From positions 1 to 64,000 of the forward strand of contig JADGCH010000009.1 of NCBI GenBank assembly GCA_015229115.1: DNA of 64,000 bases. Reading direction: 5' to 3'. The notes beneath the pieces are model-generated. The model ran no database searches, was not told the origin of the DNA, and saw only the letters and a list, made by a program, of their open reading frames with translations. Origin of the DNA: Magnetococcales bacterium. GTDB taxonomy: Bacteria; Pseudomonadota; Magnetococcia; Magnetococcales; JADGCH01. Positions 20,518 to 40,369 of the stretch are shown one piece after another. The translations under genes and the position numbers were made by a program. Within the stretch, counting starts at the first letter, position 1, and each line of letters starts with the position of its first letter.

Positions 20518-20593
20518 GGGCCGTTAGCTCAGTTGGTAGAGCAGCAGACTTTTAATCTGCGGGCCGTAGGTTCGATTCCTACACGGCTCACCA
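20518..20593 (+). tRNA. tRNA-Lys (anticodon UUU)
   Basis: The 76-base cloverleaf is complete. Acceptor GGGCCGT (20518-20524) pairs with ACGGCTC near the 3' end with one G-U. The D arm is GCTC...GAGC, the anticodon stem GCAGA/TCTGC encloses CTTTTAA with anticodon TTT, and the T arm GTAGG-TTCGATT-CCTAC is canonical. The CCA tail is encoded (20591-20593). Confidence 0.97.
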
Positions 20594-20690: not shown

Positions 20691-22526
20691 GTGACTAAAC
20701 GATGGTTATCGATCTCTTTTACCCATGGGCATGTAGGCGTTGGTCTTGTTGCCATACTGTTCTTGATGGCGTTGTTTGGTGGTTTTGCCCTGTGGCAAAC
20801 CAATCAGATTGCCGGGCTCACCGTACGACTTTACACTCATCCTTTTGCCGTCAGTAACGCTACTCTTCGTATCCAGCTCTCCCTATTGCGTATACACCAT
20901 CTCCTGACTGAAACCATCCTGCTTGACCAGAAAAACCTTTTGCCAAATGATTTGCGGGATGAGATTGAGCAGGAAGAGCAGGCCATCTTGGAGGATTTTT
21001 CTCTCATTCAGGAGCGATTTCTGGGAGACAAGGAAGATGTGATGCGTGCTACCCAGAGTGTCATGGCGTGGCATCCTGTAGTGGATCATATTCTGGCGTT
21101 GCTTGAGAAGGGAGACTACGTCGGGGCCAAGCAGCTCATGAAAACGCGGGAAGCGGTACAGATGGCGGAAATCTCCACGCAAACCAAAGCTATAGAGCTG
21201 TTTGCTAGAGCTAAAGCGGCTGATTTTTATAGTAAATCTCAAGATCTTCAGAATAGTGCCTTTATCAATAGTCTGGAATTGATTCTGGCGACACTGTTTC
21301 TCAGCAGCGTCATTGCTGTCGTTCTATTTCTGAAAAATGCTGCCACCGAGCAGGCCTATCTTGCCAGTCAACAGGCGTTTAGGGAAAGCGAGCGATTTAC
21401 CCTGTCAGCGATTGATGCCATTTCCTCGCATCTCTGTGTTCTTAATGAGCAGGGTATCATCATAGCGACTAACCAGTCCTGGCGCGATTTTTCCCGCAAT
21501 TATGCCTGTGATGCCGCGGGGTTGGGTGAAGGCAGCAACTATCTAACAGTCTGTGATGCGGTACAGGGAGAAGACCGTGTTATTAGTCAAGCGGTGGCCG
21601 ATGGTATCAGGGCTGTATTGTCTGGACAACAACAAGATTTTTCGTTTGAATACTCCTGCCCAGTACTTGAGGAGGTTATGTGGTTCATGTTGCGTGTAAC
21701 CCGGTTCCATGGCGATGGTCCTTGTTTTGTTACCGTGACGCACGACAACATTACCGAGATTAAGCGGGTTGAGGAATTGCTGAGAAACGTTAACAAGCTG
21801 CTGGAAGAACGTGTGCAACAACGTACACGCGAGCTGGAACGTTCCAATCAGGATTTGCAGCAGTTTGCCTATATTGCATCACACGATTTACAGGAACCCT
21901 TACGTCAAATAAGCGGATTTGCCCAGCTGCTTAAACGACGTTATCATGGTCATATGGATAGCAAGTCAGACCAGTTTATTGATTATATGGTTGAAGGTTG
22001 CCAACGTATGGTCAATATGATCAACAGTCTGTTACATTATTCCCGTGTCAGTACACATGGCATTGATTTGCGTCCCATCACGGTTGAGACCTTGCTGGAG
22101 CGTGCCCAGATAAATCTCTTGACAAAAATCAATGAAACTGAGACAGTGATCACACGGGATGTGCTGTCAGTGACGTTGTGGGGTGACGAGCAGCAATTGT
22201 TGCAACTCATGCAAAATCTTCTAAGCAATGCCATCAAGTTTTGCCAGCTTGGTCAGAAGCCCCGCATTCACGTTTCAGTTCAGCGGCAGGGGAATGACTG
22301 GGTGGTTTCGGTGCAGGATAATGGCATCGGCATTGAGTCCCAGTATGCTGACCGTATTTTTGTCATTTTTCAGCGGTTGCACCTGCGAACAGAATTTGAT
22401 GGTACCGGGATTGGGTTAGCCGTCTGCAAGCGTATTATCGAACGCCATAATGGTCGGATCTGGTTTACTTCCGAACTTGGTCAGGGAAGCACCTTTTCTT
22501 TTTCCTTACCCAGCCAGGGAGGTTGA
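20691..22526 (+). CDS. Membrane sensor histidine kinase with PAS domain, first gene of the Kai cluster
   Basis: A 611-residue kinase starting at GTG 20691 (start uncertain; no strong ribosome-binding site). TM1 is VGLVAILFLMALFGGFALW; a periplasmic helical bundle of about 160 residues rich in Leu/Glu follows, like chemoreceptor four-helix sensor domains; TM2 is LILATLFLSSVIAVVLFL. A PAS domain (AIDAISSHLCVLNEQGIIIA) precedes a HisKA domain with His398 in YIASHDLQEPLR and a complete ATPase (LLSNAIKF, QDNGIGIE, GTGIGLAVCKRI). The dimerisation motif is of the phytochrome-like type often paired with Rcp1-like regulators, and exactly such a gene follows directly. Confidence 0.88.
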   Translation: MTKRWLSISFTHGHVGVGLVAILFLMALFGGFALWQTNQIAGLTVRLYTHPFAVSNATLRIQLSLLRIHHLLTETILLDQKNLLPNDLRDEIEQEEQAILEDFSLIQERFLGDKEDVMRATQSVMAWHPVVDHILALLEKGDYVGAKQLMKTREAVQMAEISTQTKAIELFARAKAADFYSKSQDLQNSAFINSLELILATLFLSSVIAVVLFLKNAATEQAYLASQQAFRESERFTLSAIDAISSHLCVLNEQGIIIATNQSWRDFSRNYACDAAGLGEGSNYLTVCDAVQGEDRVISQAVADGIRAVLSGQQQDFSFEYSCPVLEEVMWFMLRVTRFHGDGPCFVTVTHDNITEIKRVEELLRNVNKLLEERVQQRTRELERSNQDLQQFAYIASHDLQEPLRQISGFAQLLKRRYHGHMDSKSDQFIDYMVEGCQRMVNMINSLLHYSRVSTHGIDLRPITVETLLERAQINLLTKINETETVITRDVLSVTLWGDEQQLLQLMQNLLSNAIKFCQLGQKPRIHVSVQRQGNDWVVSVQDNGIGIESQYADRIFVIFQRLHLRTEFDGTGIGLAVCKRIIERHNGRIWFTSELGQGSTFSFSLPSQGG

Positions 22527-22991
22527 ATGGAACCACAGGATGAGCGGTCGATCGTTATTTTACTGGTTGAAGACAGTCCATCAGATGTAGCCCTGACCCG
22601 GGAGGCCTTGCTGGAGAGTGGTATACGCAACCAGCTGTGCGTGGTGACCGATGGTGAGGCAGCGTTGGATTTTCTGTATGGCCGTGGGGCCTACGCCCTG
22701 TCACCAAGGCCGGATTTGGTGTTGCTTGATCTCAATTTACCCCGCCGTAATGGTCGCGAGGTATTGCAGGAAATCAAGGCAGATGCCAAGTTGAAGACCA
22801 TTCCTGTTGTGGTGCTGACCACTTCGCGTGATGAAACAGAAATCCTGTATACCTATCAGCTCCACGCCAACTGCTATGTTACCAAGCCGGTTGACCTCGA
22901 CAAGTTTTTCTATGTGATTCGTTCCATTGGTGAATTCTGGTTTACGGTGGCAAAGCTTCCCGTCGCAAAACAGGGAAACCTTGTTGTTTAG
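22527..22991 (+). CDS. Rcp1-like single-domain response regulator
   Basis: A 154-residue receiver of the Rcp1 type, longer than Che[18 protein letters not shown] is the acidic pocket, [17 protein letters not shown] has the phosphorylated Asp, [10 protein letters not shown] the switch Thr, and [11 protein letters not shown] the Lys. The ATG follows the kinase stop without a gap, so kinase and regulator are translationally linked and probably cognate. There is no output domain, so it must act by protein contact, perhaps with downstream Kai-associated proteins; that link is inference. Confidence 0.9.
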
Positions 22992-23006
22992 GGGTTGTTG
23001 TTGTCC

Positions 23007-23891
23007 ATGAGTGTTGTTCAGGACGTACCGGTTCCAGTATTGCTCATTGAGGATGATCTACCGTTTGGTCTATTGCTGAGCGAGTGGTTGGATGAGAGCA
23101 ACAGGGACGATGCTCTGGTTGGCGGAGTGTCGCGTCTGCAACTGGAGTCAGTCCCAACCTTGGCCCTAGCGATCCGGCGACTTGAGCGGGGTGATGTCGC
23201 CGCTGTAGTGGTGGACCTTAACTTGCCAGACAGCCAGGGTATGGCCACCTTTGATCAGTTACAGGAGGTATGTCCTCATATCCCTATCGTGGTGCTCTCA
23301 GGGATCAATGACGGCAGCATTGCCCTGCAGGCAATGCGGCGTGGCGCCCAGGATTACCTGATCAAGGCCCATGTCACCGGTTTGCTGTTATCGCGTGCGG
23401 TCCGGTATGCCATTGAACGACACAACCTACAACAGGAGTTGTTGCGCATTCAGGGGTCAGCCCGGCGAGAACAGGAACGACAGTTTCTTGATCGGTTTAC
23501 CCATCGCAGTGCTGTTTCAGCTTCGATGTTGGGGGTTCCATCACTGAGACAGGGGTTACCGGACCTGTTCCAAAATTTTATTGACCGATTCGATGACGTA
23601 CTTGAACGGGCCATGGAACAGCGATCTTATAAGGTATCCCAGGTTGAGTATATATCCGATGTACTTCTTGTGTTGGCGCGGGATTTAAGTTTTCTCAAAT
23701 GCGGTCCGCGTGATGTGATCGATATCTACATGGAGGCGCTGTCACGCAAGGATGGCCTGTTTAATCCGATCAAGACACAGGCTTACAGCGAGGAGGGGCG
23801 GCTGCTGAGTCTGGAACTGATGGGGCAGCTGGTGCTGCAATATCGTCCCTATGCCCTCGGAACGGGCAGAAATTATTCCGGTGTGGAGTGA
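23007..23891 (+). CDS. Receiver domain protein with KaiA/RsbU-N-like C-terminal domain
   Basis: 294 residues from ATG 23007. Residues 1-130 are an intact receiver (Glu15-Asp16-Asp17, Asp70 in [11 protein letters not shown], switch Ser98, Lys120 in YLIKAH). Residues about 175-282 are all-helical and show the pattern of the KaiA C-terminal/RsbU N-terminal four-helix bundle: a first helix ending in an alternating charged segment, then [13 protein letters not shown], comparable to VLEIHVEL in cyanobacterial KaiA, and a final helix [14 protein letters not shown] comparable to the KaiA terminus. Its place directly before kaiB and kaiC strongly supports a role with KaiC. This architecture matches the KaiA3-type proteins described in cyanobacteria. 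The C-terminal assignment is inferred from pattern, not alignment scores. Confidence 0.7.
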
Positions 23892-23934
23892 GAACTATCG
23901 TTACGTTTCCGAAGTGATCAAAGGACTTTTTTCG

Positions 23935-24225
23935 ATGGTAGAATGCAATAAATATCTGTTAAAGCTCTACGTTACGGGGCACACTCCCCGCTCCCAGCAT
24001 GCCATCAGCAATTTGCGCCGAATTTGTGAGGGTGAGCTGGCAGGCCATTACGAGATGACAGTCATCGACATACTGGAACATCCAAGTCTGGCTGAGGATG
24101 AGAAAATTCTGGCAACGCCGACCCTGATTAAAGTCCTTCCGAGCCCGATCCGAAGAATTATCGGTGACCTTTCCGATACGGAAAAGGTGTTGTTCGGGCT
24201 GGATTTGCAGCCGCTCCACCGTTGA
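23935..24225 (+). CDS. kaiB: Clock protein KaiB
   Basis: A 96-residue KaiB with a thioredoxin-like fold. ATG 23935 is chosen because AAAGGA lies nine bases upstream and the product then starts just before the family signature; the frame is open to 23851, inside the preceding gene. Signature segments are [20 protein letters not shown], the [19 protein letters not shown] region containing the conserved cis-proline, and [18 protein letters not shown]. Known KaiB switches fold to bind KaiC and to sequester KaiA. Gene order here is KaiA-like, kaiB, kaiC with 43-base gaps. Confidence 0.95.
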
Positions 24226-24268
24226 ACTGTTTTTCGTACACACCTTCGGAGTCCAGTGAGGAAACATC

Positions 24269-25786
24269 GTGAACAAGCAACATCAGGAAGCCCCTGTAGC
24301 CAAATTACTGACAGGCATTGACGGGTTCGATCTTATTGCCCAGGGTGGTTTGCCCAAAGGACGAACGACCTTGCTGGCAGGAACGGCTGGCAGTGCCAAG
24401 ACTGTATTTGCCGCACAGTTTCTGGCTGAGGGGCTTCGTAAACACGACGAAAATGGTGTTTTTGTCACCTTTGAGGAACCTCCTGCTGACATTCGCCGCA
24501 ACATGCTCTCCATGGATTGGGATATCCAGCAGTGGGAAAGCGAAGGTAGATGGGCCTTTGTTGATGTGTCACCACAGCCGGAACTGGAACAGATCGAAGC
24601 CGGTGCTTTTGATCTTGGCGCTCTGCTGGTGCGCATTGAGCACGCCATCCACAAGGTTGGAGCCAAGCGGGTAGCCATCGATTCTCTCGGAGCGGTCTTT
24701 TCGCAGTTTCTCAACTCAGCCATGGTGAGGGAGGAGCTGCGGCGTCTTGGTGCTGCCTTGCGGGGCATGGGCGTTACGGCTGTGATGACTGCCGAAAGAA
24801 CCCAGGAGTATGGCGAAATTGCCCGTTTTGGTGTTGAGGAATTTGTCGCTGACAATGTTGTCATCCTGCGTAATGTGTTGGAAGATGAAAAAAGGCGCCG
24901 CACGGTAGAAATACTCAAATTTCGCGGTACAACCCACCAAAAAGGTGAGTATCCGTTCACAGTGCTTCCGGACAGTGGCATCATTGTTATTCCCCTGTCA
25001 GCCATTGAGTTGAAACAACGATCTTCTGATCGTCGTGTTTCTTCTGGTAACGAAGAGTTGAACCGGCTTTGTGGAGGAGGATTTTTCCAGGACTCCCTGA
25101 TCCTGGTCTCCGGTGCTACCGGTTGTGGTAAAACATTGATGACAGCCGAATTCATTGCAGCCAGTGCCAGTCGGGGTGAACGCAGCCTGCTGTTCGCTTA
25201 CGAGGAAAGCCGTGAGCAGCTGTTTCGTAATGCGCGTGGCTGGGGGATCGATTTCCAGCTGTATGAACAGCAGGGGTTGCTGCGCGTCATTTGCGCTTAT
25301 CCGGAAAGTGCCGGTCTGGAAGATCATCTCATCCAGATCAAGACCGAGATTGATACCAGCAAACCGCGACGGATCGCCGTCGATAGTGTTTCCGCTCTGG
25401 AGCGAGTTTCCACCAACCGTGGCTTTCGTGAATTCATTATCAGTCTGGCCTCATTTGTCAAACAGCGAGAAGTGCCTGGACTGTTTACGGCGACCACAGC
25501 CAATCTGATGGGGGGACCCTCCATCACGGAATCACACTTTTCCTCGATCACGGATACCATTATCCTATTGCGCTATGTGGAAATGCTGGGAGAGATGCGC
25601 CGTGGTATTACCGTGTTGAAAATGCGCGGTTCTATGCATGAGAAGGATATCCGTGAGTTTATCATTGACAGTCAGGGCATGCACATTGGCAAGCCATTTC
25701 GCAATATCATCGGGATCCTGTCTGGCAAGCCAGAGTACGTTTCTTCTGGCGATGCAGAGCGTATTGGACGACTGTTCAAGGAGTGA
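24269..25786 (+). CDS. kaiC: Circadian clock ATPase/kinase KaiC
   Basis: A 505-residue double-RecA protein. The C1 Walker A reads G38-TAGSAK-T45 (Ala43 in place of the second Gly), with paired catalytic glutamates in FEEPPADIRR. The C2 Walker A is G282-ATGCGK-T289, with YEESREQLFR as its Glu pair. The autophosphorylation site aligns as T420, S425, S426 in TESHFSSITDT: Ser-Ser rather than the Ser-Thr of cyanobacterial KaiC1. LLRYVEMLGEMRRGITVLKM and the C-terminal RNIIGILSGKPEY follow; the A-loop tail to which KaiA would bind is present but shorter than in Synechococcus. Neighbours encode kaiB and kinases. Confidence 0.95.
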   Translation: MNKQHQEAPVAKLLTGIDGFDLIAQGGLPKGRTTLLAGTAGSAKTVFAAQFLAEGLRKHDENGVFVTFEEPPADIRRNMLSMDWDIQQWESEGRWAFVDVSPQPELEQIEAGAFDLGALLVRIEHAIHKVGAKRVAIDSLGAVFSQFLNSAMVREELRRLGAALRGMGVTAVMTAERTQEYGEIARFGVEEFVADNVVILRNVLEDEKRRRTVEILKFRGTTHQKGEYPFTVLPDSGIIVIPLSAIELKQRSSDRRVSSGNEELNRLCGGGFFQDSLILVSGATGCGKTLMTAEFIAASASRGERSLLFAYEESREQLFRNARGWGIDFQLYEQQGLLRVICAYPESAGLEDHLIQIKTEIDTSKPRRIAVDSVSALERVSTNRGFREFIISLASFVKQREVPGLFTATTANLMGGPSITESHFSSITDTIILLRYVEMLGEMRRGITVLKMRGSMHEKDIREFIIDSQGMHIGKPFRNIIGILSGKPEYVSSGDAERIGRLFKE

Positions 25787-25819
25787 TCAAGCATCAATCC
25801 GGGATCGAGAGGTGCTCTG

Positions 25820-26848
25820 GTGTTGGGTAAGAATACCTGCCGTGCGATCGTCGAGAACAACGTCGATGGCATTATGGTGGTTGACCGTTGTGGTTTGGTC
25901 CGTTATGCCAATCCGTCGGCGATCATGCTGTTTGGTCGTGGGGCACAGGGAATACTGAACCAGGAATTGGGGTATCCTCTGGTTGCCGGAGAAAGTGCTG
26001 AACTGGACATCGTTCATACAGACCGACAGCATTTTGTTGCTGAATTGCGCACCACGGAAATCGTGTGGGAAGATGATGAACGCGCTTTTCTGGTGTCGCT
26101 GCGTGATATTACAGAACGACACTGCTTGCTTGAGCAGCTGAAAGATGCCTTGCATACGGCCGAGACCTCCTTCCGTTCCAAGGAGCGATTTCTTTCCAGC
26201 GTAAGTCATGAATTGCGCACTCCCCTGAATGCGGTTATCAGCTTGGCTAGGCTGTTACTGGACGGGGCCATGGGACCGCTCAACGTGACTCAGAAGAATT
26301 TTTTACGCGATGTGCTCGACAGTGGCCAACATCTGCTGAGCAAGGTCAGTGACATGCTGGATCTGGCCGACATGGAATCTGGCCAATGCTCCATCAGCCA
26401 TAAACCCGTTTCAGTGCGCATCCTGCTGGCCAATGTCTTGCGGGCCTTGCGCAGTCATGCCGTTGAAAAAGGGATTCAATTTACAACCAACTGGGTTTCC
26501 GTACCAAAACTGATCAGTACTGATGAATGGTTGCTGGAACGCATGGCCTACAATCTGTTGTATCATGTTGTGCAACAGACACAAAAAGATGGAACGGTTC
26601 ATGTGGTAGCCTGCCAGACGTATCGGAATACCAGTACCTCTGTGACCGAAAAATTCCTGTTGCTATCGGTGACGGGTCAACGGAACATGGATGAGAGCCA
26701 GACTGTTGCCGATCCTGATTCCATGGGTCATGATCTTGGCATGAATCTGGTCCAGAAAATGGCTGGGTTGCTTGGTGGACGGGTTTGGGTTGAAAAACCG
26801 GTCCATCAACAGGGGCACACTTTTCACGTCGAAATTTTATTGGCCTGA
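25820..26848 (+). CDS. PAS histidine kinase with degenerate ATP-binding domain
   Basis: 342 residues from GTG 25820, seven bases after gagagg. Residues 8-105 are a PAS domain ([20 protein letters not shown]). HisKA follows with His130 in [14 protein letters not shown]. The C-terminal ATPase region is recognisable but eroded: the N-box reads [15 protein letters not shown] without the usual Asn-rich motif, no DxGxG box is evident, and only a [16 protein letters not shown] segment resembles the G2 box. It may be phosphorylated by another kinase or act as a scaffold. It is 33 bases after kaiC. KaiC-linked PAS kinases occur in other proteobacteria. Confidence 0.8.
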
Positions 26849-26876
26849 AACAGGAATATGGGAGAGGGCTGTGGTG

Positions 26877-29147
26877 ATGCCACAAGGAACAATCTCGGTA
26901 TTGCTGGTAGAGGATAATCCATCTGATTCTGCCATGCTGCAGGAGTGCCTGAAACAGGCCGTCCCATCGCTGTCTCGCATAGAGCATGTCGGGTCTCTTG
27001 CGACGGCACTGGCCTGCATGCAGCAACAACCGTATCAGCTTGTGCTGCTCGATTTAAATCTGCCGGATAGTACTGGTCTTGAAACACTGCGGCGTTGTCG
27101 TTCCCAGGATTCCAGACTGCCTGTGATCGTCCTAACCGATGAGTCTCATGTTGAGTTAGCGACCTTGGCTGTGCGTGAGGGAGCGCAGGATTATCTGGTT
27201 AAGGAATCAATCGATTGGGGTGATTTTTCTGGTAGAATGTTGCACATGGCCATCGATCGCAGCTACTTTCATCAGGTTCTGGAACAAAGTCGACAAAGTT
27301 TCCGTAATATTGTCGACAATAACAGTGACGGTATTCTGGTCGTCGATATACGTGGTTTTGTCCGTTTTGCCAACCCAGCCGTTACCAAGCTATTTGCCGG
27401 TCACCAGATTCATCCGGGTGATCTGTTCGGTTATCCTGTGGCGGCCAATGATGCCACTGAACTGGATATTGCGCCATTCGGCATGGCTAGGTGTGTGGCA
27501 GAAATGCGTGTTGCTCGGACGGAATGGGAAGGAGAGGAAGTCTTTCTAGCCTCCCTGCGTGATATTACGATACGCAAAAAACTGGAAGAGGAGCTGTGGC
27601 GTGCCAAAAAGGAGGCTGAAATGGCCAATCACGCCAAAAGTGCTTTTCTGGCTGTCATGAGTCATGAGATTCGTACACCGGTGTCGGCTATCGTTGGCCT
27701 GTCTGACCTGCTGGAGGAGACCAGTCTTGACACCGAGCAGCGGGAGTTTGTCAACTGGTTGCGTGAGTCAAGCAGCGTATTATTAAACTTGGTCAACGAT
27801 ATTTTGGATCTTTCCAAGGTTGAGGCCGGTGAGCTGCGTCTGGAACGTGCCGAGTTTGGTTTGGCTGATCTGCTGCAAAGTGTTTCTCATGTCATACAGC
27901 CGCGTGTTACCGAAAAGGGGCTGAAATTTGATTGTGTTACCGGTACGGGATTGCCCGCTCTATTGGAGGGTGATGCGGCAAGGTTGCGACAGATTCTACT
28001 CAATTTGCTCAGCAATGCTGTTAAATTTACAGATTATGGAGGAAGTATTACTCTAAGAGTTGATCAATATCAGAGAAATACAGAAACAGCTGGATTGCGC
28101 TTCACGGTCACCGATACCGGTATTGGCATTGCACCCGACAAACAGGAGCAGGTCTTTGATGATTTTGTCCAGGCCGATTCATCCATCGCCAGGCGCTATG
28201 GTGGCACGGGCCTTGGTTTGGGCATTAGTAAGCGGTTCGTTGAACTGATGGGGGGTACCATTGGTTTGACTTCCAGCGAGGGAGAGGGTAGCAGCTTCTA
28301 CATCAACGTTGACTTGCCTTTGGCGAGAAAACGATCCACTGGGGTACCGGATCATCATCCAGCCAAGCTCCGTGAACCTGATCAGGCGCAGTTAAGTGGT
28401 CGACGGGTGCTTCTGGTGGAAGCCAATTCAATCGAGCGTTTGTTGATCACCAAACTTCTGACCAGTTCCGGCCTGTTGGTGGAGGAGATCCCTGTCTGGC
28501 GTGATGGATTAACATTGCTGCATGAGGCGCGCGTTCGTAGCCTTCCTTTCCATTTGCTGATCATTGGCAGTGAGCGAAACGGTTTCAGTACTACAGATAT
28601 GCTGAATGACCTGCAACAGACCGATGCCTATAATGGACAGCCCGTACTGATACTGGACTCTGAACCATTGCTTAAAAAAGAGGAATTCATCAGTGTTCTC
28701 AACTATTTGTCGTTGACAAAACCCGTTGAAAAAGATCGATTCATGACCGCAGTGACTCAGGTGATTGCGCTGGGGAAGTCGCTGCGTATCTTGCTGGTGG
28801 ATGATTCACCAGAAATACACATGATCGTACGGGCCTTTCTCAATCACGGATTGCATCACATCGAAACGGCTAAAAATGGCTACGAGGGTGTGGAACAATT
28901 CAAAAAGGGCCGTTTTGATCTGGTATTGATGGATTTACAGATGCCAGGGATGAATGGGGTTCAGGCGACGAGGGCCATTCGTTCCTGGGAACAGCAACAG
29001 CAGCGGCATCGGGTACCCATTCTGGCATTTACGGCTGCCACTCAGAAAGATGAGTCGGCTTGGTTGGATGCTGAGTGCGACGGATTTGTCGCTAAACCCA
29101 TCCGCAAACAGAAGTTTCTTGATACCATCAGTCGTTATGCCTTGTAG
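26877..29147 (+). CDS. Hybrid histidine kinase (REC-PAS-HK-pseudoREC-REC)
   Basis: 756 residues from ATG 26877, eight bases after gggagaggg. The N-terminal receiver ([32 protein letters not shown]) precedes a PAS domain similar in sequence to that of the previous gene ([18 protein letters not shown]), a HisKA with His263 in [14 protein letters not shown], and an intact ATPase ([35 protein letters not shown]). A second receiver-like fold ([13 protein letters not shown]) lacks the acceptor Asp, and a final canonical receiver ([31 protein letters not shown]) follows. Last gene of the Kai cluster. Confidence 0.9.
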
Positions 29148-29192: not shown

Positions 29193-30368
29193 GTGACATT
29201 GACGGAACTGCAATTCCAGGTCTCTCTTGGTGAAGACAGCCGTCGTCAATTCAAGCAGGATATTACCAATGCTGATGCGCTTGGTTCGGAGATGGCTGCC
29301 TTTGCCAATTCCGACGGCGGTGTCATCCTGCTCGGTGTGGCGGATGACGGTTCGTTACTGGGCCTCAGTCGTTCGGATGTTGTCCGTGTCAATCAGCTGA
29401 TCAGCAATGCCGCGGCACAGCATGTGCGCAGTCCAGTCACCGTACAAACCGAAAATATTGGCATTGACGATGGACGTGTTATCGTGGTACTCACCATACC
29501 CAGGGGGGAGGACAGGCCCTATTTTGACCGTCACGGAGTCATATGGCTCAGAAGCGGTGCCGACAAACGCCGGATCAACTCCAAAGAGGAATTACGTCGC
29601 CTGTTCCAGAGTGTTGATCAGTTCCATGCCGACGCACTGCCAACCAGTGCTCCGATCAGCAAAATCGATAAGCTGCGCTTTCGTGACTTTCTGCACGATG
29701 TGTATCAGCAGGATTGGCCCGAGACACAGCAGGATCTGCTGACACTGCTGCAGAACATGAATCTGGCTACCGACGATGGCCAGCTCAATCTGGCCGGGGT
29801 GCTACTGTTTGCCGAGCGGCCGGAGCAGATCAAGCCGCAGTTTGTTGTCAAAGCCGTGCGCTACTTGGCCGATGTTCCCTACACCAACGGCTATCTGGAT
29901 ACCGAAGACATCGGCGGTGCCTTACCCAAGGTGTTTACCGAGGCGATGGCCTTTGTCATGCGCAATCTGCACAAGGTTCAGGCCGGTCGCAGCGTTAACG
30001 CTCCCGGTATTCCGGAGATTCCGCCATTGGTGCTGGAAGAATTGCTGGTCAACGCCCTGCTTCATCGCGATTACCTGATTAGCGCACCAATCCGGTTGTT
30101 GGTCTTCGACCATCGTATTGAGATCATCAGCCCGGGCCACCTGCCCAATCATCTGACTGTTGCCAAGATTCGCACCGGTAATTCCATCATCCGCAATCCG
30201 ATCCTGGCATCCTACATCGCTAAAGGACTGTTACCCTATCGTGGCATCGGTTCCGGCATCAAACGGGCTCTGGCCAACTGGCCAGAGATCGATTTCAGCG
30301 ATGATCGCGACGGCTGCCTGTTTACCGTCACCATCCATCGGCATGAGCCTTCCGGCTCGATCGGCTAA
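29193..30368 (+). CDS. AlbA_2/Schlafen-type ATP-binding regulator
   Basis: 391 residues from GTG 29193. The N-terminal 150 residues match the AlbA_2 (Schlafen AAA_4-like) domain: EDSRRQFKQDI, EMAAFANSDGGVILLGVADD, and YFDRHGVIWLRSGADKRR. The C-terminal half is the GHKL-related HATPase_c_4 region often annotated as RecG-like: LVLEELLVNALLHRDYL, RIEIISPGHLP and PYRGIGSGIKRAL. Such proteins are usually transcriptional regulators or RNA/DNA-binding proteins of unclear function. It starts 45 bases after the Kai cluster and could be its last gene; its 3' end overlaps the convergent ccoS by four bases. Confidence 0.82.
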   Translation: MTLTELQFQVSLGEDSRRQFKQDITNADALGSEMAAFANSDGGVILLGVADDGSLLGLSRSDVVRVNQLISNAAAQHVRSPVTVQTENIGIDDGRVIVVLTIPRGEDRPYFDRHGVIWLRSGADKRRINSKEELRRLFQSVDQFHADALPTSAPISKIDKLRFRDFLHDVYQQDWPETQQDLLTLLQNMNLATDDGQLNLAGVLLFAERPEQIKPQFVVKAVRYLADVPYTNGYLDTEDIGGALPKVFTEAMAFVMRNLHKVQAGRSVNAPGIPEIPPLVLEELLVNALLHRDYLISAPIRLLVFDHRIEIISPGHLPNHLTVAKIRTGNSIIRNPILASYIAKGLLPYRGIGSGIKRALANWPEIDFSDDRDGCLFTVTIHRHEPSGSIG

Positions 30369-33789: not shown

Positions 33790-36700
33790 TCATTCCAGCG
33801 AAGGTATTTTAGCCACAATTTGTGTGCCACAGTTGTCAGCCACCGTACCAATAGTCAAACTGCCGCCCAATCGTTTGGCCCGTTCCCGCATGCCGGAAAT
33901 ACCGAATGAAACCCAGCCATCCTGTTGCAGTGGCAGAAAGCCGACACCATTGTCGGTCACGGTGAGTACGACCCATTTCTGTTCCAACTCCTCTGTTATC
34001 CGCAGGTCGATACGGATCTGTGAGGCTTGGGCGTGACGAACAGCATTGGTGACTGCCTCCTGGCCAATACGGAACAGTGCGGTGGCGTGGCCATCGTCCA
34101 GGATAGGTGTAATCTCCTGTGATAGGGTCACCTCCAGTCCGGAGTGAAAAGCGACCTGATCCGCCATCCATTTCAGGGCAGCATGGAGGCCAAAATGGTC
34201 CAAAACAGGGGGTCGAAGGGAGGTGGCAATGCGTCGTACCGTTTGCTGGGCGCTATGGGCCAATTCTGCTATCTCTCGGCACCGCTGCTTCGTGTCAGGA
34301 GATGTCTGATACTTTTCCAATTGGGTGAGCGCAATTCTGATGGCAGCCAATGTGCCACCGAGCTCGTCGTGGACCTCTCCGGCAATGCGTTTTTTTTCCG
34401 TTTCTGCTGCTTGGTCCAAATGGTTCCCAAGGCGACGGATCTCCATGGTTGCGCGTTGTTCTGATGCCAACATTTGAGCATTGACCAGGGAGACCACTGC
34501 TTGTGCCCCTAAAATGGTCACAGTTTCCAGCCGTTGTGGTGAAAATACTCCGGATGCTCCGCCATGTTCCAGATACAGTGCGCCAAGGAATGCTCCGGAG
34601 TGGCGCAAGGGTACACAGAGCACAGACCTGGGCACGCGCTGGTCACGAAAAGATCCTCCCCAACGAGCGTCTGTTGGGGCCTCTGCCAATAGAACGGTTT
34701 CTCCACTTCTGAATACGTAACGGATTAACTCCATAGGAACGGCGGGGGGAACGGTGTGGTGGTGATCACATCGGTGTGGATCGTCCAGAAAAAATTGTAT
34801 GATGCCCGTTGTTTGCCATCCCTCGGCGGCCAGGACCAGATGTTCCTCCTGTAGCCATATGAGGCACCCCCGTTCTGCACCGGTATTGGCAAGTACCGCC
34901 TCAAGCAGTCGGATGACCACCTCTCTTACGCCTTCACCAGACGCAACAGATTGGGTCGCCTTCAGTAGTGTTGGATAATCCAGCATCTGTTCGCCCTTCT
35001 GCCGGTCGGAGGTTGTGGCTGTATCCAAACTGGACGATGCCACACCCGTTACCCGCTCGGGCCATTCCTCCAGTACTTCCCGATAGCGTTGTACAAGATC
35101 CATTTCTTTGGCTGTGGCACCGTAGCGAGACCATACCAGGATCGCCCGGTGTAACATGGAGCTGGCCAGCATCGGTGACTTCATGTCCAATAAGCACTCC
35201 CCAGCCATTTCCAGGGCCATAGCCTCGTATTGCATCCAAACCTCTCCACTCTGGGCACGAATCGCTGCTACAGCTGCTTCGCATAGGGGCAGAGCCTGCT
35301 CCGGATGCCCAAAGGCGCGCCGACACGCCGCTTTTACCAGGTAGTCGAGATGGAGGAAATGGGCCGAATTGTGTTGGGCCCAACGCGCCAGCTGTTTTTG
35401 ATTGGTTGCCACCAGACGCAATAGGCGCCGCCTCTCCGTCGTTGTGGCACTGGGCAACAAGGCCAGCGAGGAGAGAGACTCGTAAAATAACACCAGGGCC
35501 AATATAGGTCTTATATTGCCTTGTGCGGCACACTGTTGCTTGGTAAGGGCCATTTGCTGTGCAGCTTGATCGTATTCACGAAATAGGAAAGCATTTTTAC
35601 CAGCCTGAAGGAAATGGAAGATGGCCATGTTGGCATTCATGGATAAATCAGCCCAAACGTCCTGTTCTGATTTTAATCGCCACGTGGCTTCTGTTTCAGA
35701 CCGCAGCTCGGCGACCGCAGCCAGTGAGGTGTTTTTGATCAACTCAGCGAGCATACCAAAATAGGTGCCATGGCTTGTCAGTATCGGTAACCAATCCTGA
35801 CATTCCTGCTTGTAGGTCTCTAATGGCTCTCCCAAGTCGATTTTGAACATCAAGAGTACCGAAATGGCTGTACCAGCGTGGAAAATTGCCCCGCGATTCA
35901 TGGCCTGTATGTAGTCTCCTGCCAGTGCTTGGCAAACCGACTGCAACGGCTGTTTCCAGGGGGAGAGAAAGGCTCTATATATATGAATATCATTGAAATA
36001 CTCTGGAAAATATTGTGGTCCACGATCAAAAATCAACTCGGCAGCCTGTCCAAAACGGTAGCCACATGTCACAGCTTTATCACAGGTGCCGCCACCAATC
36101 AGACTGCTTCCAACCCAGACAAAATAACTTGCGGCGTCGTTGATCAAACATTCTTCCTGTAGCATGCGCAGGAGGATGATGGATGCAATGAGAGAGGCCA
36201 ACCGCGGATTGGCAAAGTGAATGGTCAACAAAATAGGTAACAACCAATGGGATTGCTCAGACAGATCTGCAGAACGACTTAATACGGGCATAGCCGCCAG
36301 GAATTCCGGCGTTGTATCGGCATAACGGGCGATTAACAGTTGTTGCACATAGCGGTGCTGACGTGTTAACTGGTTAGGGGTGAGGTGGGTTGGATAACCA
36401 AATTGATGTAAAACAAAATGGCCAAGTTCCAGTATTTTTCCAAACATCGAATGGGGAAGGTACAACGGAGCCAGATAAGTGAGAATTGGGCATAGATGGG
36501 TAAAACTGTCTGCGTGTGCTGCAATATCCGTTCGCAAGGCCTCAACTCGTTCCAAATCTTCGGCGATACCAGCACATTTCCCCGCCCCGTTGTGCAAAGC
36601 AAGGGCTAAATCATAATGCCACTGCCACCCTTCTTCACCGAGCAACAGCATGCCTTTCTCAAAATATTGCCTGGCTGTGGCAAAGGCCGCGGATTGGTTG

Positions 36701-38964
36701 GCCTGTTGTCCGGCATCCAGTAGTAGTTGGGCGATCTGTGGGCGTTCATCAGGATCCAGCATCTCAGGAGTGGTATCACAGAACTGGTCGGCCAGCAAAA
36801 AGTAGCGTTCACGGATCTCTGTATGAGTAAAAACGGCATACAGTCGACGTCCCAGTTCCAGGCGGAACTGGGGGCGCTGCGATGGCAGTACCAGAGCCAG
36901 GGCAGCTTCTTGCACCTGGTCGTGGGCGAAACGATAGCGGATGTCATCGGGTATGGTTGCCAGCCAGCGAGCCAATCGCCGTGCCCCGCGCATGGGGAGC
37001 AACAATCCGGTTGCCAACAGCTGTTCCAGCGTTAGGATCACGGTATCAGTAGGTTGATTGCTCACGGTGATCAGGTCTAAAAGGTTGAACCAGTGGCCCA
37101 GATAGGCTGCACGGGCTATCAGATCACGTTGCTCTTGATCCATACCTTGCAGGCGATCCAGTAAACGTGCGGCGACACTTTTCGCCACTTGGTGTGTTTG
37201 GATGACCTCTAAATCCCAACACCATTTACCCTCTTCCATGCGGAGTAATTTTTGGAGGTGTAAGGCTGTCAGAAATGTGCGCAGATCAAATGGATTGCCG
37301 CCCGTTTTGGTGTGAAGCAGCTGTACCAGAGGTGCAAGTGTTGCGGGGGAGTGATCCAGGGTGGCGGTGAGAAAGGAACTCGTTGCTGCTACACTCAATG
37401 GGTTGAGGTGCAGGGTAGATAAAGGGAATTTCTTTTCTTGCCATCTGCTAACAGCTTTTTTGAGAGGGTGGCTGGTAGGAGTTTCATCGTCTCGATAGGT
37501 GCCTACCACCAGGAGGTGCGTGCTCTTGGCATCGGCTAATAGATCGTTGATCAGCTCCAGGGACATCTGATCTGCCCACTGTAAATCGTCTAGCACTACC
37601 ACGAGTGGTCTCTCTGGTTCGGTTAAGGAACGCAACAAGACCAATAAAATATGGCGCAGTCGGATGGCAGTTTCGGAGGGAGATAATTCGGGTGGTATTC
37701 CTTCATGCTGGAATAACGGAGCTATTTGTGGCAGTGTGCGAGCGAGCAGAGTCAGATCCATGCCTAGATCCATCCGCAACTGCTGCTGCCATTGGTCGAA
37801 TAGGGCGTCTGCGTCCGCCATGCGTTGGCGGCACAGATCCTCAATCACCTCCATGACAGCAGCCATCGGTCGACTTTGCTGGATCAGGCCAAATTTGCCA
37901 CTGGCAAACCGTCCTCGTGATGCGGCGACATGTGGCCGTAATTCCATGGCCAGGATCGACTTGCCCATACCGGCCGTACCGGCCAACAGTAGCAGGTGAC
38001 TCTCACCACGGCACGCCTGTGCCAGGAGAGTCCTCAATATCGATAATTCCTGTTCTCGTCCGTATAACCGACATGGAAAGCGCAAAATCTCTACCCGATC
38101 ATGACGCGCCGGGGTAAAAGCTGGTATCTCTCCGTGTTGGTTCCATGCCTCCAGACAGTGGCGCAGATCTTTTTCCAGGCCAATCGCAGATTGATAGCGT
38201 TCCATCGGCTCTTTGGCCATGAGCTTTGCCACGATGCAGGAAAACATCTCTGGTATTTCCGGTCTACCAAGATGGATCGGCCGTGGCACCTTGGCCAAAT
38301 GGCATGCGACTAACTCAACCGGATCGGTGGTTGGAAAAGGAGGATAGCCGGTCAGAAGGTGGTACAGGGTGGCACCTAAAGCGTAAAGATCGGAGCGTAA
38401 ATCAACGGGTCGGTTCATGCGCCCCGTCTGCTCTGGAGCCATATAACGCAGCGTTCCCTCCAATAAGGCCGGTGGAGTCCCTTCGATGTTTTCTTCGGGC
38501 AGCCGGTCAGCGATGCCAAAGTCGATGAGGCGCAGTTCCCTCATTTGCCGGTTCCACAATAAATTGGCTGGGGTGATGTCTTTGTGAATGATCCCAGTTG
38601 CGTGCACCCGAACGAGCGTGCTTGCCAGCAGGATGCTGATCTGAAGTACTTCCAGCCAAGGCAGGTAAGGTGGGTGCGGTGTGGTTATGAGACGATCCAG
38701 AGAGATACCGCCCATCTCCTCCAGAATGAGGGCGATGGATTCCTCATACCGCGTCAATCCAGCACAGCGGATCACCCCGTCGATGGCGGATAAAGAGACC
38801 GTTACGGCATGTTCGTGCCGAAAACAGGCCAAATTTTCATGGGTTGGGTAGGGCAGAGATAAAATTTTCAGAACAACGGGCTGGCCTTCATAGGATACAC
38901 GCAAAACCCGGCTTTTGCGCCCCTGGTAGATGAGTTCTGAGGTGCGCCGCTCAAGGTTTGCCAT
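33790..38964 (-). CDS. Trifunctional Ser/Thr kinase / AAA ATPase / GAF-histidine kinase
   Basis: About 1,724 residues. Start ATG 38964 overlaps the symporter 3' end by 14 bases; the frame is open to 39036. N-terminal eukaryotic-type kinase: QPVVLKIL (Lys), IIHKDITPANLLW, LIDFGIAD, RYMAPEQTGR. Then an AAA_16-type ATPase with Walker A LAGTAGMGKS and Walker B VVVLDDLQWAD, and a long helical, TPR-like region. A GAF domain (ERGCLIWLQEEHLVLAAE) and a HisKA_3 kinase (EKKRIAGEVHDELGG; GQEAVTNAVRHA; TDNGVGF; GISGMRERAKRLGG) close the protein. All catalytic motifs look intact. A NarL-type regulator is encoded convergently. Confidence 0.93.
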   Translation of the reverse strand: MANLERRTSELIYQGRKSRVLRVSYEGQPVVLKILSLPYPTHENLACFRHEHAVTVSLSAIDGVIRCAGLTRYEESIALILEEMGGISLDRLITTPHPPYLPWLEVLQISILLASTLVRVHATGIIHKDITPANLLWNRQMRELRLIDFGIADRLPEENIEGTPPALLEGTLRYMAPEQTGRMNRPVDLRSDLYALGATLYHLLTGYPPFPTTDPVELVACHLAKVPRPIHLGRPEIPEMFSCIVAKLMAKEPMERYQSAIGLEKDLRHCLEAWNQHGEIPAFTPARHDRVEILRFPCRLYGREQELSILRTLLAQACRGESHLLLLAGTAGMGKSILAMELRPHVAASRGRFASGKFGLIQQSRPMAAVMEVIEDLCRQRMADADALFDQWQQQLRMDLGMDLTLLARTLPQIAPLFQHEGIPPELSPSETAIRLRHILLVLLRSLTEPERPLVVVLDDLQWADQMSLELINDLLADAKSTHLLVVGTYRDDETPTSHPLKKAVSRWQEKKFPLSTLHLNPLSVAATSSFLTATLDHSPATLAPLVQLLHTKTGGNPFDLRTFLTALHLQKLLRMEEGKWCWDLEVIQTHQVAKSVAARLLDRLQGMDQEQRDLIARAAYLGHWFNLLDLITVSNQPTDTVILTLEQLLATGLLLPMRGARRLARWLATIPDDIRYRFAHDQVQEAALALVLPSQRPQFRLELGRRLYAVFTHTEIRERYFLLADQFCDTTPEMLDPDERPQIAQLLLDAGQQANQSAAFATARQYFEKGMLLLGEEGWQWHYDLALALHNGAGKCAGIAEDLERVEALRTDIAAHADSFTHLCPILTYLAPLYLPHSMFGKILELGHFVLHQFGYPTHLTPNQLTRQHRYVQQLLIARYADTTPEFLAAMPVLSRSADLSEQSHWLLPILLTIHFANPRLASLIASIILLRMLQEECLINDAASYFVWVGSSLIGGGTCDKAVTCGYRFGQAAELIFDRGPQYFPEYFNDIHIYRAFLSPWKQPLQSVCQALAGDYIQAMNRGAIFHAGTAISVLLMFKIDLGEPLETYKQECQDWLPILTSHGTYFGMLAELIKNTSLAAVAELRSETEATWRLKSEQDVWADLSMNANMAIFHFLQAGKNAFLFREYDQAAQQMALTKQQCAAQGNIRPILALVLFYESLSSLALLPSATTTERRRLLRLVATNQKQLARWAQHNSAHFLHLDYLVKAACRRAFGHPEQALPLCEAAVAAIRAQSGEVWMQYEAMALEMAGECLLDMKSPMLASSMLHRAILVWSRYGATAKEMDLVQRYREVLEEWPERVTGVASSSLDTATTSDRQKGEQMLDYPTLLKATQSVASGEGVREVVIRLLEAVLANTGAERGCLIWLQEEHLVLAAEGWQTTGIIQFFLDDPHRCDHHHTVPPAVPMELIRYVFRSGETVLLAEAPTDARWGGSFRDQRVPRSVLCVPLRHSGAFLGALYLEHGGASGVFSPQRLETVTILGAQAVVSLVNAQMLASEQRATMEIRRLGNHLDQAAETEKKRIAGEVHDELGGTLAAIRIALTQLEKYQTSPDTKQRCREIAELAHSAQQTVRRIATSLRPPVLDHFGLHAALKWMADQVAFHSGLEVTLSQEITPILDDGHATALFRIGQEAVTNAVRHAQASQIRIDLRITEELEQKWVVLTVTDNGVGFLPLQQDGWVSFGISGMRERAKRLGGSLTIGTVADNCGTQIVAKIPSLE

Positions 38965-40369
38965 GGCACGACCAGAACCGTACCAAAGAGAGATTTTCAC
39001 TCGGCGCGTGTTGGCTGAGATAAGAACCGAGTACAAAACTGATCAAACTGGCCATGAACCCCGGAAGGAACGCTGTTGCGGCATCAATCCACATAAACAC
39101 AGACAACACGATGATGCCAATGATGATCGATAGCAGCGACCCGAATGAGGTCGCTCTGCGCCAGAAAAAGCCTCCCCCTATGGCTGGCAACAGAATCAGT
39201 AACATAAGCGTGCCATTAACACTCAAGGCAACGATATCATGGATCCATAGGGCAATTCCAAGCCCCGCCATACCACATAGCAAGGTGGCTATCCGTCCCG
39301 CCAACAACAGTTCAGATCCGGTTGCCTGTTTTCGGATAAAACCTTTGTAAATATCTTTTGTGACGCTGGCCGAGGCAACCATGATGGTCGAATTGAGTGT
39401 TGAGATGACCACAGCCATAAACGCGGCCAGACCTAGCCCGCGCCATCCACTGGGCAAATGCTCATTCATCACAACAAAAAACACCACATCTTTGTCCGAT
39501 AAATTTGGGTACAGAAAACGGGCTGATAAACCGAACAATGTTGACATGCCATAAAATAATGCTGTTACACACATGGAGAGGAACAGGGCTCTGCGCGCAG
39601 TCGTTCCGGATGATGAGGCATAAATGCGTTGCCATAATTCCATGGAAACAAACGTACTTCCGGCGCCGAAAATAATTCCTATGACGAAGAATGAGACCCC
39701 ACCGTAGGCAAACGGGTCGAAATAGGATTCGGGTAATACGGCCAGTGTCTGGATGCCACCAATGGCAGACAGGACAGAGGGCGTTAATACAAAAGCAAAG
39801 ATCAGTATAATTAGAACAAAATGAATCACATCCGTGTAAAAATCACTTTTGATCCCTGAGAAGGCCGTGTACAGGATTGTGGATGCTACGGCGATCCAAA
39901 CAAAGAATTCCATGCCCGCCATAGGCCAGACCCGTACCAATGACATCAGGCCGACGAACTGTGCCGCGGTCAAAGTCACGTAGATGAAAACGATCACCAC
40001 CGATACGAGACCCTGATTGACACGTGAATAACGTTTGTCAAACAGGTCACCGATGGTATGCGCGTTGAAACGATCGCCAAACTGTTGCAGTTTTGGGGCA
40101 AACCACGCGCCGACGAATGCACCAACCAGAACGCTACAGGCGGCCGTTAGCCCCAAAGAAATACCCTGTTTATAGGTCGATGCCGACACGGCAAGGGTTG
40201 TTCCAGTGCCGACCCAAGTGGCAACGATGGAAAACAGGACCAGCCAAAAAGGGGCCCGACGAGAAAAAACGAGATAATCATCCGCTGTTTCATGCAACCC
40301 TGAATAAACGGCCCAACCCATCAACGCCAACAGATAAACGGCTATGATGCCCATGTCCAACGCTGTCAT
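38951..40369 (-). CDS. Sodium:solute symporter (SSS family)
   Basis: A 472-residue membrane protein with about 12-13 hydrophobic segments and the SSS pattern: ETADDYLVFSRRAPFW, IVATWVGTGTTLAVSA in the unwound first repeat helix, and AFMAVVISTLNSTIMVASAS near the Na2-site region. It resembles the proline/pantothenate/unknown-solute branch; the solute is not deducible. A taaggaaaag site precedes the ATG. Gene order (outer-membrane protein, symporter, giant kinase, all minus strand) and overlap with the kinase start suggest the transporter and kinase belong to one sensing system. Confidence 0.88.
   Translation of the reverse strand: MTALDMGIIAVYLLALMGWAVYSGLHETADDYLVFSRRAPFWLVLFSIVATWVGTGTTLAVSASTYKQGISLGLTAACSVLVGAFVGAWFAPKLQQFGDRFNAHTIGDLFDKRYSRVNQGLVSVVIVFIYVTLTAAQFVGLMSLVRVWPMAGMEFFVWIAVASTILYTAFSGIKSDFYTDVIHFVLIILIFAFVLTPSVLSAIGGIQTLAVLPESYFDPFAYGGVSFFVIGIIFGAGSTFVSMELWQRIYASSSGTTARRALFLSMCVTALFYGMSTLFGLSARFLYPNLSDKDVVFFVVMNEHLPSGWRGLGLAAFMAVVISTLNSTIMVASASVTKDIYKGFIRKQATGSELLLAGRIATLLCGMAGLGIALWIHDIVALSVNGTLMLLILLPAIGGGFFWRRATSFGSLLSIIIGIIVLSVFMWIDAATAFLPGFMASLISFVLGSYLSQHAPSENLSLVRFWSCHGKP

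Follow-up and report, generated by a model that had tools for sequence, protein, structure and literature searches.

We describe a seven-gene operon from a member of the Magnetococcia that probably encodes a KaiA3-type KaiABC timing module, in general scheme, equipped with dedicated two-component proteins for input and output. The operon occupies positions 20691–29147, on the forward strand, of the first 64,000 nucleotides of contig JADGCH010000009.1 (hereafter 'the window'), part of a metagenome-assembled genome (MAG) of the order Magnetococcales (GCA_015229115.1; 3.15 Mb, 96.5% complete). Read 5' to 3', it comprises genes for a membrane histidine kinase (20691–22526), a single-domain receiver of the Rcp1/RcpA family (22527–22991), a KaiA3-type protein (23007–23891), KaiB (23935–24225), a double-domain KaiC (24269–25786), a PAS histidine kinase (25820–26848) and a hybrid kinase (26877–29147). 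The initial annotation, made from the DNA alone, had described seven closely spaced same-strand genes; all seven open reading frames are present at these positions and, with the likely starts chosen, are separated by gaps of just 0–43 bases. The starts chosen are ATG 23007 for KaiA (with an alternative TTG at 22995), ATG 23935 for KaiB (whose reading frame is open from 23851) and ATG 26877 for the hybrid kinase (alternative TTG at 26772). The components of the module, their catalytic and phospho-acceptor residues, the structure of the operon and its conservation can all be read from the sequence.

The KaiA3-type protein consists of an N-terminal receiver, a long linker helix and a C-terminal four-helix bundle resembling that of KaiA. 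The receiver fold is evident in the predicted model, and the residues expected of a phosphorylatable receiver, as found in KaiA3, are retained: D16, D70 and K120 are invariant in 22 homologues. The C-terminal domain is a more distant affair. Searches with the single sequence matched the receiver only, leaving the C-terminal half without a recognisable family, and a profile built solely from Magnetococcales versions of this domain (A1) did not match any KaiA. When a profile of 28 homologues (A2) was compared with 177,635 PDB sequences, however, the top four matches were distinct KaiA sequences (E 0.05–0.18); a broader profile of 39 (A4) placed KaiA in its top three positions (best E 0.015), with at least seven KaiA sequences among 24 matches. 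In Pfam, no families other than KaiA and RsbU_N, the two in which this fold is known (PMC11372060), drew matches from several sequences of the broad set, and in a smaller homologue set one further family was matched by two members; weak matches to Gag_p24_C and ThiG were dismissed as chance. AlphaFold2 models the C-terminal part as a linker helix followed by a four-helix bundle (pLDDT 85), and the model of the whole protein matches a full-length KaiA structure (4g86) with an E-value of 1.2e-5, a score of which the receiver may supply a large part. Taken at the level of profiles, Pfam and model, the KaiA-like bundle appears to be present, and we regard its remote homology to KaiA as well supported; a reading also backed by synteny with kaiBC, which holds across phyla even where a PAS domain replaces the N-terminal receiver. 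The initial annotation's 'KaiA-like' assignment is therefore borne out by family profiles that rank KaiA structures first, although it could not have been reached from the single sequence.

The identities of KaiB and KaiC, which the same annotation had called unambiguous, are secure, as both proteins exceed the cut-offs of curated models. KaiB scores 119 bits against PRK09301 (cut-off 110) and 99.7 bits in Pfam, and matches KaiB structures in the PDB with E-values of 1e-30; KaiC scores 648 bits against the circ_KaiC model TIGR02655 (cut-off 546). A search of the genome found no other full copy of KaiB or of double-domain KaiC. Both Walker A motifs and the catalytic Glu pairs of KaiC are in place, with the exception of a Gly-to-Ala change in the CI domain, where the motif reads GTAGSAKT and Ala replaces the usual Gly before Lys. 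The same motif is common to relatives in the Chloroflexales and Fimbriimonadaceae, with a GTSGSAKT variant in the Spirochaetales; in cyanobacteria, the CI ATPase is tied to period (PMC6989803).

At the positions of S431/T432 the window KaiC carries two serines (HFSSITDT). Ser-Ser together with a long tail is a hallmark of KaiC2, Ser-Thr of KaiC1 and KaiC3 (PMC10076222, PMC6989803), and the placement of this protein was examined in a tree of 47 KaiC proteins, including ten of KaiC2 type and, copied from printed alignments, two cyanobacterial-type PDB sequences. The window KaiC is one of 15 sequences, from Magnetococcales and a single Thiotrichales MAG, that form a clade with full support; this is nested in a broader clade of KaiA-linked KaiCs (Chloroflexota, Armatimonadota and Spirochaetota), a long way from the ten KaiC2-type proteins. 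Ser-Ser is found in all 15 members of the clade, whereas the KaiA-linked KaiCs outside it are Ser-Thr. The KaiC2-type proteins share the two serines but have tails of 91–103 residues from the FRN position, versus 29 in the window KaiC, which is 57% identical to Thermosynechococcus elongatus KaiC as against about 37% to Rhodobacter KaiC. We rejected membership of KaiC2 because of the tail length and the identity values. Nor do we class the protein as KaiC3: the Ser-Thr pair was looked for and is absent, and the Synechocystis proteins lie outside the tree. On the simplest reading, the two serines would represent an independent Thr-to-Ser change within the KaiA-linked lineage.

Conservation of the arrangement in relatives, which the initial annotation had put forward as a check, was explored by searching with the C-terminal domain of KaiA alone; all counts that follow are raw, uncorrected for phylogeny or for gaps in MAGs. 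The 25 loci obtained span Magnetococcales, Thiotrichales, Betaproteobacteria, Rhodobacterales (Tritonibacter), Nitrospinota, Chloroflexota, Armatimonadota (Chthonomonadales and Fimbriimonadaceae), Spirochaetota and UBP7. In 24 of them kaiA, kaiB and kaiC are contiguous, and kaiA precedes kaiBC in the window as well; the remaining locus (L041:9503-10366) encodes a Chthonomonadales receiver-KaiA unlinked to kaiBC, KaiB being found on another contig of that genome. Among the Chloroflexota the domain occurs in 23 of 301 genomes, with kaiB and kaiC adjoining it in 20 of 25 sampled loci. Within the Magnetococcia (48 genomes, one order) it is present in 20 genomes and KaiB in 22, every one of the 20 also having KaiB (Fisher p 1e-11, phylogeny uncorrected); among the other Pseudomonadota sampled, KaiB occurs in about 15 genomes and the KaiA-like domain in just one. 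Two-component genes accompany the conserved kaiABC order: of the 14 Magnetococcales loci, 13 have an Rcp1-like gene immediately 5' of kaiA, as a rule preceded by the gene of a membrane or PAS kinase, and in most loci a PAS or REC-PAS hybrid kinase lies 3' of kaiC. The kinase-Rcp-KaiA-KaiB-KaiC-kinase order recurs in a UBP7 genome (L054) and in a distant member of the Pseudomonadota (L085).

The related loci carry some additions of their own. In four, kaiC is followed by a gene for a PAS-GGDEF diguanylate cyclase (L031:13578-14864, L036:12697-14016, L042:7689-8981 and L095:4516-5808), which suggests a cyclic-di-GMP output there and is absent from the window operon. Many Magnetococcales loci have a second, divergent stand-alone KaiB after kaiC (L036:12389-12700; likewise L035, L037, L039, L040 and L045). 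Second, divergent kaiABC sets occur beside the first or in its place in Magnetococcales and a Thiotrichales MAG (L034, L042, L048 and L095; L092 and L093); these have a Ser-Thr KaiC and sometimes the order kaiB-kaiA-kaiC.

The proteins encoded around kaiABC are, for the most part, as the initial annotation had them. The membrane kinase combines a 4HB_MCP-type four-helix-bundle sensor with a PAS-like domain, HisKA and HATPase_c (Pfam); in PDB searches its core is close to bacteriophytochrome kinases, with no phytochrome sensor domain detected by Pfam. The small receiver belongs to the Rcp1 type, matching the structures 1i3c (E 1.7e-40), 1k68 (E 6.8e-41) and 1jlk, all at about 1e-40. The hybrid kinase has the architecture REC-PAS-HisKA-HATPase-degenerate REC-REC, Pfam matching one receiver N-terminal and one C-terminal to the PAS-HisKA-HATPase core; its N-terminal receiver is the nearest in the operon to that of KaiA (34% over 115 residues). 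For the PAS kinase the assignment stands, the domains being PAS-HisKA-HATPase, but a degenerate ATP-binding domain had been overlooked: the phospho-acceptor region is intact, yet in an alignment with seven intact relatives the G1 region is missing and the N-box Asn has become His. With these elements lost the protein probably cannot bind ATP normally, and it is a probable recent pseudo-kinase. A fusion in the Chloroflexales supports the view that these kinases and KaiA are linked in function. There the KaiA domain is joined in one polypeptide to two PAS modules, one resembling, at 37% over 103 residues, the PAS domain of the downstream kinase in the window, the other, at 30% over 198 residues, the input kinase. 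In a further exchange of the N-terminal part, seen in the Spirochaetales (L052:1-1782), the KaiA domain lies at the end of a protein with multiple PAS domains and a length of 593 residues or more.

How such a module might work can be sketched from established Kai biochemistry, in which KaiA stimulates KaiC autophosphorylation and KaiB mediates its reversal (PMC11372060, PMC10076222, PMC5520375); how the window proteins interact, which way the signal runs and over what time are all inferred. The membrane kinase, proposed as the input kinase, and its Rcp1-like partner would control, by supplying phosphoryl groups, the state of the KaiA receiver. The four-helix bundle of KaiA would then bind the short C-terminal tail of KaiC and turn on autophosphorylation at the two adjacent serines; phosphorylated KaiC could recruit fold-switched KaiB onto the CI ring, and KaiB could in turn capture or block KaiA, allowing KaiC to dephosphorylate and giving a cycle of some hours. 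The hybrid kinase may read the state of KaiB/KaiC, perhaps with the PAS pseudo-kinase as its partner. Arranged like this, the operon could amount to the 'self-contained timer' envisaged by the initial annotation.

Several observations weigh against a KaiA3-type timing module. The homology to KaiA is remote and each E-value, taken singly, is marginal; Foldseek searches with the isolated domain returned KaiA chains without significance (E 0.4–1.6, root-mean-square deviation 4–5 Å, TM-score at most 0.54), a weakness attributable to helical bundles matching many unrelated proteins. Together with the failure of the single-sequence searches, this is what would be expected were the C-terminal domain a helical output domain of no relation to KaiA, placed next to kaiBC by chance. 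We consider that very improbable, as KaiA and RsbU_N come to the fore in separate searches by profile and by family and the synteny with kaiBC is near-perfect across phyla, even with PAS in the N-terminal half. On the output side, the PAS kinase has probably lost its catalytic activity, and a SasA-type kinase fused to KaiB was not found, the stand-alone KaiB being the sole gene with an above-cut-off KaiB domain in a family search of this 96.5% complete genome. Finally, the phosphosites of KaiC are Ser-Ser rather than the Ser-Thr that underlies ordered phosphorylation in cyanobacteria.

For the dynamics, the main rival draws on the same components: a non-oscillating, signal-gated switch, in which the KaiA receiver toggles KaiC phosphorylation with redox, oxygen or light, and the whole serves as a stress regulator. 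Such a switch is a serious contender, if somewhat short of an even chance. It sits well with an operon that encodes a membrane-bound sensor kinase alongside several receivers, with a KaiA receiver that keeps its phospho-acceptor, unlike the pseudo-receiver of canonical KaiA (PMC11372060), and with serines that could abolish ordered phosphorylation; KaiBC systems of Legionella and Pseudomonas are tied to stress in work as cited in PMC11372060. Against this, the nearest characterised relative, Synechocystis KaiA3B3C3, shows a (damped) circadian phosphorylation in vitro (PMC11372060), and both KaiB and the catalytic residues of KaiC CI are conserved here. The two serines would also suit an hourglass timer of the kind formed by Rhodobacter KaiBC (PMC10076222), with KaiA added but resetting still by the daily change in ATP/ADP. 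That we think improbable: KaiC lacks the C-terminal coiled-coil extension and is much closer to the T. elongatus protein than to that of Rhodobacter, kaiA is present, and the gene order is kaiA-B-C, not kaiC-B. At the other extreme, the KaiA3-type module could be a self-sustained, free-running oscillator with a period of about a day, built on a two-serine KaiC and a KaiA set directly by phosphotransfer from the operon's sensor kinase; this stronger version seems unlikely, though not markedly so, and were it true, a core clock component would be the input receiver itself.

Upstream of the operon lie a tRNA-Lys gene (20518–20593) and a cheA-cheW-cheB cluster, and directly 3' of it, on the same strand, a Schlafen AlbA_2/RecG-like gene (29193–30368); the operon is thus flanked by genes of other kinds. 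Its boundaries are placed by spacing and these flanking genes only, because a scan for promoters and terminators did not find clearly more of them than in shuffled sequence. We considered the che genes as a part of the module and rejected them, as a relative of CheB was never the best match among the related kai loci compared. Further along, the reverse strand (33790–39036) encodes a Ser/Thr kinase-AAA-GAF-HisKA_3 fusion of 1748 residues.

The locus bears on the wider question of KaiA-driven clocks outside the cyanobacteria: a complete relative of KaiABC, encoded together with sensor proteins of its own, makes KaiA-driven timekeeping in a non-cyanobacterium testable. The class represented by the magnetotactic cocci has a complete KaiABC, with conserved candidates for input and output, in about 40% of the genomes sampled. 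A Ser-Ser KaiC that coexists with KaiA uncouples features otherwise seen together (Ser-Ser and no KaiA), and can therefore probe the need for ordered Thr-Ser phosphorylation in a KaiA-driven oscillator; the Chloroflexota proteins in which PAS modules of Kai operons are fused to the KaiA domain offer a direct lead on the signals that enter KaiA.

In comparison with known systems, the window shares with canonical Synechococcus elongatus KaiABC its three components and a KaiA-like C-terminal bundle. It differs in that the canonical KaiA has a pseudo-receiver devoid of the acceptor Asp, which the window KaiA retains; in that the canonical system has SasA (a KaiB-like sensor joined to a histidine kinase), for which no counterpart was found in the window genome; and in the Ser-Ser phosphosites of the Magnetococcia KaiC. 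The KaiB2-KaiC2 hourglass of Rhodobacter (Cereibacter) sphaeroides also has two serine phosphosites, but its KaiC bears a coiled-coil tail of ~50 residues and works with no KaiA (PMC10076222), whereas the window KaiC has a short tail and a kaiA-like gene adjacent. Among magnetotactic bacteria, kaiBC-based systems with no KaiA reported are described for the Nitrospirota member XS-1 and for multicellular magnetotactic prokaryotes, where KaiB/KaiC lie, as here, near histidine kinase genes (PMC10278575); a literature search returned no paper on a clock in the Magnetococcia and no rhythm data for the group.

The closest precedent is KaiA3-KaiB3-KaiC3, published in 2024 (Kobler et al.) for Synechocystis, Chloroflexota, Chloroherpeton, Rhodospirillum and Bradyrhizobium (PMC11372060); the Chloroflexota also yielded KaiA-domain members here. 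The initial annotation had thought the pairing of a KaiA-like protein with KaiBC outside cyanobacteria unusual: the pairing is real and its synteny conserved, but it is not new per se, the same receiver-KaiA fusion being already on record. As in the window, Synechocystis sp. PCC 6803 has a receiver-KaiA chimera that keeps the acceptor Asp and whose gene immediately precedes kaiB and, as a rule, kaiC (PMC11372060), as well as a double-domain KaiC3 with no KaiC2 tail. Its KaiC3 is Ser-Thr (S423/T424; PMC6989803), however, where the Magnetococcia KaiC is Ser-Ser, and the Magnetococcia operon adds dedicated genes for a histidine kinase, an Rcp1-like protein and a hybrid kinase; the Ala in the CI P-loop, read from the Magnetococcia protein alone, may be a further difference. 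What appears to be new is the variant: a KaiC clade of its own, Ser-Ser yet short-tailed and paired with KaiA, housed in a kinase-Rcp1-KaiA-KaiB-KaiC-kinase cassette.

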